Shown: positions 29,793 through 34,370 of the stretch, in pieces
Layout: the number at the start of each line of letters is the position of its first letter
Numbering within the stretch: the first letter of the stretch is position 1
Origin: Phoenix dactylifera
Lineage: Eukaryota > Streptophyta > Magnoliopsida > Arecales > Arecaceae
NCBI RefSeq assembly: GCF_009389715.1
Contig: NC_052392.1
Span: 32,833,227 to 32,897,226, forward strand
DNA length: 64,000 nt
Reading direction: 5' to 3'
Notes under the pieces: model-generated
What the model was told of the DNA's origin: nothing
The model's input: the letters and a program-made list of their open reading frames with translations, nothing else
Database searches by the model: none
Made by a program: the position numbers and the translations under genes

Positions 29793-29797
29793 CCGAG
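29793..29797. other. target-site duplication, left (CCGAG)
   Basis: Five bases directly before TGTTGCTGG match the five directly after the right end (34366-34370). Confidence 0.8.
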
Positions 29798-30755
29798 TGT
29801 TGCTGGAAATTGGACCCGGGGGCGATCTTCGGTCGGAGAGAGGGAGCAGCAGGTCCTCCCGGCGGGCCGGTGATCCGTTGGCGGGTAGCGTCCTCCGTCT
29901 GGGTGCCTGCAGACAAACCGGTGGCCGGGTTTTCCGGCGCCGGCCCTCCGACGCTCAAGTCAGAAAGGGGGGCAAACAGTGGGGACAGAAGAAGAGAAAC
30001 AGTGTTTTGTGGAGTGCGTAATTTTTTCCTCCAACCCCCCACCTGAGAAGCCAAGGCTCCCTTTTATAAGCGGGGGTCGGTTTACCTGTGATGTAACGGG
30101 GCGAGGCCATAGTACGGCTCGGCATGTGGTTCAGGTCAGCGCACGAGCAGGCGAATCATTGCGCTGATGTCGGCGATAAGGGCGTCATACGACCCGAATT
30201 AGCACGCTACCAGGCGAATTATTGCATTGGTGTCGGAGGTAAGGCCGAGATCAGAGACTTATCATAGTCGATTATCATAGTCGATTGGACTTTACTAGGC
30301 TAGCTTGCCGTGGAGAGCTGAGAGTCTGTAGATGACAGGAGCCATGCGCATTAATTGTGGAGTAAGCCGGAGATCCCCATTAATTGTGGAGTAAGCCGGA
30401 GATCCGCATTAATTGTGGAGTAAGCCGGAGATCTGCATTAATTGTGGAGTAAGCCGAAGATCCGCATTAATTGTTGAGTGAACTGGAGGTTTACAGTGGT
30501 CATGCGCAATAAATGCCGGGGGAGCGGCAGAGTATGGTCCTCGGCCGGACCTCAGAGAGGTATGGCCGTAGTAGGTGGCTGACAAGGGTAGACCTTGAGC
30601 ATCAGGGTTTTCCTAGGTCGGAGGTTCCGAGGTCGGATGTCTTGAGGTCAGGCGCTCCGAGGTCGGACGCCGACTTCGGCCGTCCAGGGTCGGCGATTGT
30701 ATGACTTCTTAGGGGCATTTGTGTCACTGGGGGGAAAAATCTTATTCCCCCAACA
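29798..30755 (-). repeat. LTR, left copy (958 bp, minus orientation)
   Basis: On the minus strand this starts TGTTGGGGG at 30755 and ends AGCAACA at 29798. It contains a TATA box (TTATAAAA, about 30062-30069 on the opposite strand) and the R-U5 motif CTGACTTGAGCGTCGGAGGG. A 29-bp minisatellite (attaattgtggagtaagccg unit) is present five times at about 30345-30480. Transcription from this LTR would run outward, toward lower coordinates. Confidence 0.8.
30345..30480. repeat. 29-bp tandem repeat in left LTR (5 units)
   Basis: Units of 29 bp begin with ATTAATTGTGGAGTAAGCCG; the last unit is diverged (TTGAGTGAAC). The right LTR has four units at about 33705-33830, and this one-unit difference accounts for the entire 29-bp length difference between the two LTRs. 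Confidence 0.85.
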
Positions 30756-31150
30756 CTACCCCCCGACTTCCGAGTTCGAGCGGCTTGAAGGCTCGGACGT
30801 GGGAAGTAAAGACTATCGTTAAAGTTGGGGGGAATCTCATCCGCACCCTTAAACTTCTCGGCGCCTTTATGACGGGACCCGCGCCCTTGGGCGCTTCGAG
30901 GTTGCTTTGTTCAGCGAACTAATGATGGGGCTTGTATCCTTACGTTTTCCGAAGCAGCTGTAATGGGGGTGGCGCCTCTCGGATCTCCGAGATCACTTCG
31001 TGCGGCGGACCCATGATGAGGGTCCTCGAGCTCGACGAGGCGGCGCCTCGATCTTGTGGTCGGGGTTCCCCGCTCATCAATGAGCATGCCGTTTCGTGCT
31101 TCAAAACAGACACGCGGCATGACCTAAGGTCGGACGCTTCCGATCTCGTG

Positions 31151-32537
31151 TTAGTGGATCATAGATCTAGTGAGGTGGAGGCTATATCGGGGCTCCACGT
31201 GTCCCAGAGCCTTATTAAATGAGGGGAGCGAGGGTGATGTCCGCTCGTTCTCCAAGGCGATTTGATCCTGCGGACCCATGATGAGGCCCCGAGATCCGAT
31301 GGGACAGCGTTTCGATTTCGTACCCGATTTATTGATCCGGAGTGAATGCGGTGCCTTGGCCTCCGAGGTCGACACGTGGCGCAATCCAGTCGGAGGATGG
31401 GAACCGACCCTGTCGATCTGGGCCGTCAGGGACTCTTCCCGGAAAACCCTCGAAGAGCTCGGCTCACTCGAGCTCGGGATTCCGGAACCTCTTACCTCGG
31501 GGCCTCTGGTCGGCTCAGACCCCGAGTGCTGGACATGGATCGTGGCGGGGCCCTCCCGCTGGGAAAGGGGCGCAGGACAAGGCGGGGCCGCCGAGCCCGC
31601 GTCGCCGATGGCCGACGTCCGCCCTTGGCCGGCTACGGAGGCCCCCGCCTCCGGGCCTCTCACCTCGGCCGATGAAGAAGCGCCGGCCAATCTTGGCTTC
31701 TTCCGAGGCTGGGGCATAGCTCCCCCGGCCTCGGCCTCTCGTCTCTTCAGGCGGGAGAAGAGGGACGTGTTGCTAGTCGGCATGTGGGGAATATCTGAAA
31801 TCAAAAAATTTCACTAAGTGTCAGACCAATGATAGTGAAAACAAAAGACAGGGAAAGAAAGTAATGTAACTACTCTTACCCTCGGGGCGCGCCGAGCTCA
31901 GACCCACACTCGCCAAGGCGTCCTCCCGTAGGAGCTCGGTCAGGTCGTACCCCTTCCCGAGGGCCCGTAGAGAGTCCAGGACCCTCAGCTCCCTCCTCGA
32001 GGGCTCGGAGAGCCTGTTGAGGGCCTTCAGCCGAGGGTGCCCCCACCTCGGGTTGAACCCCCACGGCGCCTCGGACGCAAGGAAGAAAAACTTCCCCTTC
32101 CACTCATGAATAGAGGAAGGGGCACCCTGGAAGAGTGACATACCGCCCCGAAAGGCAAAGTATAGCCACCCTGCGTCCGCCGGGTTCTTTTTTAACAGAA
32201 AGCACCGGCGGAAGATGCTTACCGAGATCGGGATCCCATGCCCGAGGCATAGGGATAGGAATCCGATTATGGTCCTCCACGAGTTCGGAGCCAACTGTGC
32301 CGGGACGAGCTAGTACTCGACCAGCAGATTATTCACAAACTCGTGAACAGGGAACCGTAGGCCGGCCCAGAGCGTCTCGCGGTAAACCGCGATCCGACCT
32401 GGGGGCGGCCGTGTCACCCTGTCTTCCGGCCCCGCGGTTTCCAGGCGAAACCCGGGCTGGAAGAAGAACCGGGAGCGGATTAACTCCAACTCCTCCCCCG
32501 ACAGGCTCGACCCTACTTCCTCAGGACCGAGACCCAT
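31151..32537 (-). pseudogene. gag-like gene of the inverted-LTR element, broken by a stop
   Basis: A minus-strand frame starts at ATG 32537-32535. The region around 32290-31880 (IGFLSLCLGHGIPISVSIF, a WLYF.FRGG block, then a KFFFLA...WGF block) resembles the plant 'putative gypsy type transposon' domain found in gag-like retroelement genes. A single in-frame TAG lies at 32312-32310. A plausible 85-bp intron (31879-31795; donor GTAAGA, acceptor TTTCAG) joins the two exons in frame. The second exon encodes a basic, low-complexity tail and then runs past the spacer into the left arm at 31431, ending at a stop at 31151, so its C-terminus is chimeric. No protease, reverse transcriptase or integrase is present, so the element is non-autonomous. 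Confidence 0.6.
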
Positions 32538-32735
32538 TTTTACAGAGAAATGAAACAAGATTAAAAGCAGAGGAGGGAAGAAGAAGAGGAACCCTAGCAA
32601 TTACGGGGTAGGAACCTACGGGACATCGCCGAAAATCGCTCCGGGCACCGACGGCAAGATTTGGTCAGGGGGTAGAGCAAGGAGGGAGACGGCGAAAATG
32701 GAAAATGCAAAGCAACCAAATGTAACTTTTAGGGT

Positions 32736-32756
32736 AGACTCGTGGGGTTTATATAG
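32736..32756 (-). promoter_or_regulatory. TATA box upstream of the gag-like frame
   Basis: On the minus strand TCTATATAAACC lies about 5 bp inside the spacer, just after the right arm ends, and about 210 bp upstream of ATG 32537. It is a good plant TATA consensus and could drive the gag-like gene independently of the LTRs. Confidence 0.5.
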
Positions 32757-33436
32757 ACCCCCCTGACGGCCCAGATCGACAGGGTCGGTTCCCATCCCCC
32801 GACTGGATTGCGCCACGTGTCGACCTTGGAGGCCGAGGCACCGCATTCACTCCGGATCAATAAATTGGGTACGAAATCGAAACGCTGTCCCATCGAATCT
32901 CGGGGCCTCATCATGGGTCCGCAGGATCAAATCGCCTTGGAGAACGAGCGGACATCACCCTCGCTCCCCTCATTTAATAAGGCTCTGGGACACGTGGAGC
33001 CCCGATATAGCCTCCACCTCACTAGATCTATGATCCACTAACACGAGATCGGAAGCGTCCGACCTTAGGTCATGCCGCGTGTCTGTTTTGAAGCACGAAA
33101 CGGCATGCTCATTGATGAGCGGGGAACCCCGACCACAAGATCGAGGCGCCGCCTCGTCGAGCTCGAGGACCCTCATCATGGGTCCGCCGCACGAAGTGAT
33201 CTCGGAGATCCGAGAGGCGCCACCCCCATTACAGCTGCTTCGAAAAACGTAAGGATACAAGCCCCATCATTAGTTCGCTGAACAAAGCAACCTCGAAGCG
33301 CCCAAGGGCGCGGGTCCCGTCATAAAGGTGCCGAGAAGTGCAAGGGTGTGGATAAGATTCCTCCCAACTTTAACGATAGTCTTTACTTCCCACGTCCGAG
33401 CCTACAAGCCGCTCGAACTCGGAAGTCGGGGGGTAG

Positions 33437-34365
33437 TGTTGGGGGAATAAGATTTTTTCCCCCCGTGACACAAATGCCCCTAAGAAGTCGTACAATCGCC
33501 GACCCTGGACGGCCGAAGTCGGCGTCCGACCTCGGAGCGCTCGACCTCAAGACATCCGACCTCGGAACCTCCGACCTAGGAAAACCCTGATGCTCAAGGT
33601 CTACCTTTGTCAGCCACCTACTACGGCCATACCCCTCTGAGGTCCGGCCGAGGACCATACTCTGCCGCTCCCCCGGCATTTATTGCGCATGGCCACTGTA
33701 AACCTCCAGTTCACTCAACAATTAATGCGGATCTCCGGCTTACTCCACAATTAATGCGGATCTCCGGCTTACTCCACAATTAATGCGGATCTCCGGCTTA
33801 CTCCACAATTAATGCGCATGGCTCCTGTCATCTACGGACTCTCAGCTCTCCACGGCAAGCTAGCCCAGTAAAGTCCAATCGACTATGATAATCGACTATG
33901 ATAAGTCTCTGATCTCGGCCTTACCTCCGACACCAATGCAATAATTCGCCTGGTAGCGTGCTAGTTCGGGTCGTACGACGCCCTTATCGCCGACATCAGC
34001 GCAATGATTCGCCTGCTCGTGCGCCGACCTGAACCACATGCCGAGCCGTACTATGGCCTCGCCCCGTTACATCACAGGTAAACCGACCCCCGCTTATAAA
34101 AAGGAGCCTTGGCTTCTCAGGTGGGGGGTTGGAGGAAAAAATTACGCACTCCACAAAACACTGTTTCTCTTCTTCTGTCCACACTGTTTGCCCCCCTTTC
34201 TGACTTGAGCGTCGGAGGGCCGGCGCCGGAAAATCCGGCCACCGGTTTGTCTGCAGGCACCCAGACGGAGGACGCCACCCGCCAACGGATCACCGGCCCG
34301 CCGGGAGGACCTGCTGCTCCCTCTCTCCGACCGAAGATCGCCCCCGGGTCCAATTTCCAGCAACA
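33437..34365 (+). repeat. LTR, right copy (929 bp, plus orientation)
   Basis: It starts TGTTGGGGGAATAAG at 33437 and ends CCAGCAACA at 34365. It has a TATA box (TATAAAAA, 34095-34102), then AGGAGCC and the CTGACTTGAGCGTCGGAGGG motif in R-U5. Transcription would run outward, toward the 3' end of the beta-tubulin gene. It is nearly identical to the left LTR apart from one missing 29-bp unit and scattered substitutions, indicating recent origin or gene conversion. Confidence 0.8.
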
Positions 34366-34370
34366 CCGAG
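34366..34370. other. target-site duplication, right (CCGAG)
   Basis: Matches 29793-29797 directly outside the left end. Confidence 0.8.

Follow-up and report, generated by a model that had tools for sequence, protein, structure and literature searches.

A palindromic Retand-like retrotransposon insertion with inverted long terminal repeats and one 5-bp target-site duplication in Phoenix dactylifera

Analysis of a 64,000-nucleotide stretch of the Phoenix dactylifera genome (contig NC_052392.1, positions 32,833,227 to 32,897,226 of the forward strand; the whole stretch is called the window here) revealed a retrotransposon insertion with the anatomy of a palindrome. Two long terminal repeats (LTRs), each followed by the same part of the adjoining 3' internal region, lie in inverted orientation around a unique spacer; on balance both outer ends are U5, and one 5-base-pair (bp) target-site duplication flanks the whole structure. 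Judged from its sequence, the element represents the 3' portion of a Ty3/Gypsy retrotransposon of Retand-like type from a palm-like plant. The two U5 ends and the 5-bp duplication point to one integrase reaction, and the evidence supports a structure formed no later than a single integration event.

The two arms, 29798-31431 and 32761-34365, are visible directly as reverse complements. Their global alignment gave 1573 matches, 28 transitions, 4 transversions and one 29-bp indel; with this indel set aside, 1573 of 1605 positions are identical. The indel is one extra unit of a 29-bp tandem repeat, carried by the left LTR. The same arms were recovered repeatedly, at the coordinates given in an earlier note on this DNA, and each consists of an LTR-like sequence and 676 bp of 3' internal region, for which that note had 676-677 bp. 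Among the inverted pairs listed for the window this is by far the longest and the best: six of the ten remain when the element's own sub-repeats are left out, and these are 61-127 nucleotides long with 73-89% identity. No further copy of the element was found in the window. Pattern searches gave one fitting stretch in viral contigs and 45 in genome contigs from virus, prokaryote and plasmid collections, none of them confirmed and with 0 exact matches in either case; a near-match search of a plasmid collection with the right LTR found no relative.

An inverted-duplicate read or clone could produce such a structure during assembly, palindromes being a known class of artefact. However, the arms differ by 2% (32 substitutions) and by one repeat unit, a 29-bp difference in length, which makes a simple inverted-duplication artefact unlikely; moreover, neither outer flank is a copy of the other, yet both bear the matched duplication. 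An artefact of this kind is scarcely credible.

The orientation of the LTRs was deduced from their ends, from the adjoining tract and from the TATA box. Both LTRs have the form TGTTG...CAACA, and an identical polypurine-rich tract, CGGAAGTCGGGGGGTAG, is located immediately inside each. Each LTR has a single TATAAAA, which lies on its proposed sense strand some 270 bp inside the outer end, and the opposite strand has none; its strand and placement therefore indicate that R-U5 faces outward. On balance these features bear out the proposal that both outward ends are U5. The element thus departs from the ordinary arrangement, in which the LTRs are direct and the outward ends are a U3 and a U5, and the inner edge of both LTRs is polypurine-rich 3' region and not the primer-binding site found inside a 5' LTR. 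A DNA transposon with long terminal inverted repeats was ruled out by the LTR-type termini, the adjacent polypurine-rich tract and the polarity of the TATA box.

Direct reading of the flanks found CCGAG at both outer ends, as previously noted. The two flanks match over exactly 5 bp, and the chance of a five-base agreement, calculated from local composition for two fixed positions, is 0.0014. CCGAG is frequent in the window, with 54 occurrences on the plus strand, and therefore only its placement at both ends counts. A short target duplication and TG...CA LTR ends are together those of an LTR-retrotransposon insertion. Two U5 ends bordered by a 5-bp duplication support the suggestion that integrase joined both U5 ends in one insertion.

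Two ordinary Retand insertions in opposite orientation might also have been brought together by later inversion, recombination or gene conversion. Recombinant complexes are the common class in plants, where 20 were described against 2 template-switching complexes in about 7 megabases (Mb) of Triticeae sequence (Sabot and Schulman 2007, PMC1950507). After such an event, however, the outer 5-bp flanks would agree only by chance, at the probability given above; in addition, the break on one side falls within the antisense gene described below, and the LTR and internal parts of the arms are equally diverged. We consider this origin very improbable, and the earlier argument that a later rearrangement could hardly yield a matched duplication at U5 ends is supported by the low chance of such a match. 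The features of the insertion are listed in Table 1.

Table 1. Positions in the window of the features of the palindromic insertion
Feature	Position	Strand	Remarks
Left target-site duplication copy, CCGAG	29793..29797		Direct read
Left LTR, 958 bp, U5 end outward	29798..30755	-	TG...CA ends; polypurine-rich tract inside; TATAAAA at LTR position 688 (near 30068)
29-bp tandem repeat in left LTR, 4.6 copies	30347..30479		Tandem Repeats Finder
Left 3' internal copy, 676 bp	30756..31431	-	Arm alignment; polypurine-rich tract 30756-30772
Abnormal junction of left arm with interior of antisense exon 2	31431..31432		P0008-P0010 match to the break, then differ
Unique spacer, 1329 bp	31432..32760		Antisense TRP28 gene, 5' leader, TATA-like box; probably contiguous with right arm
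Exon 2 of antisense gene, cut off at 31432	31432..31794	-	Acceptor AG ends at 31795; 73% over 71 amino acids to P0010
Retained 85-bp intron, GTAAG...TTTCAG	31795..31879	-	GT at 31879, AG ending 31795; phase fits both exons
Exon 1 of antisense gene, PF04195	31880..32537	-	658 bp from ATG at 32537; phase leads into MPTSN frame of exon 2
TATA-like box upstream of antisense gene	32749..32755	-	5 bases outside arm edge; putative promoter
Right 3' internal copy, 676 bp	32761..33436	+	Arm alignment; polypurine-rich tract 33420-33436
Right LTR, 929 bp, U5 end outward	33437..34365	+	TG...CA ends; polypurine-rich tract inside; TATA box at 34095
29-bp tandem repeat in right LTR, 3.6 copies	33713..33816		Tandem Repeats Finder
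Right target-site duplication copy, CCGAG	34366..34370		Direct read

The minus strand of the spacer carries an antisense gene with a match to PF04195 (Transposase_28, TRP28) that is barely above the Pfam cut-off (26.9 bits against 26.2). A 162-amino-acid piece was compared with 5.8 billion proteins, and 7 relatives were found among 108 candidates; the best of them (P0001) was 90% identical over 100% of the piece, and PF04195 is annotated in 6 of the 7. The start of the gene shares 92% identity with P0001 over the first 75 amino acids. For exon 2 four relatives were obtained, two of which are named as Phoenix dactylifera proteins, and the description of the host as palm-like is based on these two. 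The gene is not intact, because exon 1 contains an in-frame stop at 32310-32312, where P0001 and P0002 continue without a stop, and because exon 2 is cut off at 31432. Thirteen pieces of open reading frames (ORFs) of the element, drawn from the 34 ORFs of at least 70 amino acids listed for 29700-34500, were scanned with Pfam: no gag or pol domains were found in them, and TRP28 was the sole family matched.

An antisense TRP28 (PF04195) gene near the 3' LTR, as found here, is described for the Retand lineage in the available excerpts of PMC11963269. In the present element this gene lies on the minus strand beside a plus-strand LTR; pol is absent, so the order after pol is not seen. In contrast to the elements of those excerpts, only the 3' part is present here, as an inverted duplicate, with no gag or pol and no primer-binding site beside the LTR. 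The tandem repeats of the region between pol and the 3' LTR were not found, and a 29-bp array is located inside the LTRs instead; according to the same excerpts, such repeats occur in about half of Retand elements and are hence optional (PMC11963269). The portion available of PMC7264820 reports that the antisense gene of Retand from Silene contains a TRP28 domain, and it also names Grande and RIRE2 as elements with antisense genes.

Since the antisense gene is oriented against the right LTR, the spacer and the right arm fit a normal Retand-type 3' end. This makes the structure asymmetric, with the spacer assigned to the right arm and a single abnormal junction, at 31431/31432. Alignments with P0008, P0009 and P0010 run to EES, EKS and EES, after which these proteins continue with (A/G)EPGSP, whereas the sequence here enters the left arm instead; the alignment with P0010 reaches the last whole codon before the break. 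The ordinary continuation is thus present in three of the four exon 2 relatives, the fourth (P0011) lacking the stretch and being uninformative, and none of the four has the junction seen here. On the minus strand the junction reads GAAGAGT followed by CCCTGACGG, and the right arm reads CCCCCCTGACGG, with CCCCCC before TGACGG. The order of the gene suggests that the right border, 32760/32761, is undisturbed. The left arm does not include the antisense gene's TATA-like box (32755), from which its end point is separated by 5 bases.

The 85-bp antisense intron is directly seen to be retained, and its splice signals and reading frames suggest that it is used. Because the intron was kept, spliced antisense mRNA was not the template: a copy made from it would have lost the 85 bp, and this source was ruled out. 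The likely template is sense genomic RNA, with unspliced antisense RNA as the lesser possibility.

In normal replication the 5' end of the minus strand adjoins U5 at the tRNA primer. The minus strand of human immunodeficiency virus type 1 (HIV-1) is described in this way, its 5' end at the tRNA primer next to U5, in the available excerpts of PMC9278108, and retrotransposon particles package two RNAs (PMC1950507). With moderate confidence, we favour the tail-to-tail fusion of two unfinished minus-strand complementary DNAs (cDNAs) in one virus-like particle, followed by one integration through the two U5 ends. The two cDNAs would have stopped at different points, one at 31432 and the other at the position matching 32761. 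Their 3' ends would have paired through a very short C/G match, and each cDNA would then have served as template for the other up to its own 5' end. The product would be a linear duplex bounded by U5 on either side, which integrase could insert in one event; the length of the arms would be set by the shorter cDNA, and the spacer would be supplied by the longer cDNA alone.

Two minus strands fused at their 3' ends carry U5 at each outer end, because each minus-strand 5' end is a tRNA-primed U5. The second arm cannot have come from a normally primed plus strand, because both arms hold 676 bp upstream of the polypurine-rich tract. To the arms, LTR polarity, duplication, left junction and intron that were read directly, the fusion adds two molecules, their mutual priming and formation within the particle, all of which we infer.

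Sequence alone separates mutual priming neither from fold-back nor from host end joining. Fold-back would involve a single minus strand, the 3' end of which snapped back at the position of 32761 and was extended along the same strand to its 5' end; the resulting hairpin would have been opened, or copied into a linear duplex, later. Fold-back, which had been suggested for this element, does explain U5 at both ends, and it also accounts for the 3'-only content and the unequal spacer; arms that were nearly identical at insertion fit it as well. What it yields first, however, is a hairpin open at one end only, and an additional opening or copying step is needed for two integrable ends; nor does it predict the clustering of arm differences described below. 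The two-molecule fusion is preferred because of this hairpin product, and we regard fold-back as improbable.

The same final anatomy (U5-U5 ends, a 5-bp duplication, unequal arms and a junction with little or no shared sequence) would arise if two truncated double-stranded cDNAs had been joined tail to tail by host end joining, before or after their co-integration by the U5 ends. This route demands, however, that two incompletely synthesised duplexes each carry a complete U5 end and that a repair event take place, and we consider it somewhat unlikely. The earlier note had proposed that a palindromic cDNA was made before integration; the single U5-U5 integration in that proposal is supported, but a palindrome preceding integration is not established, as two truncated cDNAs could have integrated together and been joined afterwards. 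Autointegration gives circles or internal inversions. Such products would not leave two outward U5 ends with a duplication, and autointegration was set aside.

The Kimura distance between the arms was 0.020. With a rate of 1.3e-8 per site per year, taken from grasses, this corresponds to about 0.8 million years; palms may be slower. Differences occurred at similar levels in the LTR (19/926) and in the internal part (13/679); the LTR edge used for this comparison was 3 bases off, and those 3 bases contain zero differences. Transitions taken as deamination were balanced, with 15 on the left and 13 on the right. This pattern is as expected for arms that were nearly identical at insertion. A further protein search, made so that the arm differences might be polarised, gave no relative.

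Several observations weigh against the two-molecule fusion or against the LTR assignment on which it is built. AATAAA, a possible poly(A) signal, is found once per LTR and on the antisense strand only, which is neutral to slightly contrary to the proposed polarity. The LTRs are identified by their ends, the tract, the TATA box and the neighbouring gene, no ordinary copy in direct order having been seen in the window. The C shared at the junction may amount to 1-3 bases, as bounded from protein only. The arms are unequal by one 29-bp unit, and their differences are somewhat clustered: 6 differences fall in 34 bp (p 0.008, for a window picked afterwards), the longest difference-free gap is 347 bp (p 0.013), both values being obtained from 20000 random placements, and the sum of squared gaps gave p 0.046; adjacent pairs were not in excess (p 0.12). 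The clustering could be due to unlike parent molecules, to gene conversion or to chance.

The nearest published case found is that of the template-switching complexes of Sabot and Schulman, who argued likewise from flanking duplications and similar outer LTRs (PMC1950507). Those complexes are also abnormal products of reverse transcription, inserted in one integration, with 5-bp duplications and very similar outer LTRs. They contain three direct LTRs and two complete cores, whereas the present element shares the flanking duplication but has two inverted LTRs with outward U5 ends, no internal third LTR and no complete core.

DIRS-type elements rely on a tyrosine recombinase, and their insertions lack a target duplication. 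They resemble the present element in having inverted terminal repeats, but a 5-bp duplication and ordinary LTR ends are found here, and a DIRS-like element was ruled out by the duplication. Inverted sequence within an integrated provirus has been reported for HIV-1 (PMC9278108); the cases in the available excerpts are inversions with a deletion of more than 1 kilobase (kb) (n=1) and genomic inversions (n=1), and no palindrome with outward U5 ends is described in them. A 2026 review of gene capture treats abnormal template switching, and its available excerpts mention no inverted form of LTR element (PMC13317346). Among the papers listed by full-text searches on the structure or the mechanism, none showed a U5-U5 palindromic insertion of an LTR retrotransposon; as most subscription papers lay outside their coverage, this speaks only weakly for its absence.

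The insertion lies in a genic neighbourhood. A tubulin gene, presumably of the beta type, is located on the minus strand, with its first exon at 40189-40686 and its C-terminal part at 36762-37514; just upstream of the first exon there is a tandem array (40774-41479) with a 162-bp unit in 4.4 copies at 70%. A SKP1-like gene (52474-53001) and a gene for a long pentatricopeptide-repeat protein (59039-61621) are located on the plus strand. About 250 bp from the element, a 5S rRNA-like sequence on the minus strand (34620-34733) covers the full model length with a weak score (41 bits against 38); it may be a pseudogene of 5S rRNA or the remnant of a Cassandra element, whose LTRs carry 5S sequences according to the available excerpts of PMC7215508. 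Between 34366 and 37000 only short direct repeats of 22-33 nucleotides were among those listed. Elsewhere in the window, several direct repeats of 320-640 bp with 71-78% mutual identity are found at 21272-24306, and a dispersed direct repeat of about 206 bp (77% identity) at 24595-24800 and 54097-54301. An inverted repeat at 56511-57848, comprising 204 bp at 77% and two stretches of 124-127 nucleotides at 75-79%, about 0.9 kb apart, is perhaps an old DNA transposon.

We tentatively propose that two nascent minus strands of one particle can prime each other at their 3' ends and so give, in a single step, an integrable U5-U5 linear palindrome, without normal plus-strand priming or the second strand transfer, and that such palindromes may be a regular class of by-products of LTR retrotransposons, overlooked by direct-LTR annotation. 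Common LTR finders look for direct LTRs. U5-U5 insertions would escape them, and their frequency could be measured in any long-read plant genome. With its two outward LTR promoters and a long inverted repeat that may be a source of small RNAs, the element lies about 2.4 kb from the coding end of the tubulin gene, where any effect is speculative. The insertion is a fossil of aberrant reverse transcription whose product was integrated nonetheless, and it provides evidence that two identical U5 ends can be joined by the integrase of a plant Ty3/Gypsy element.

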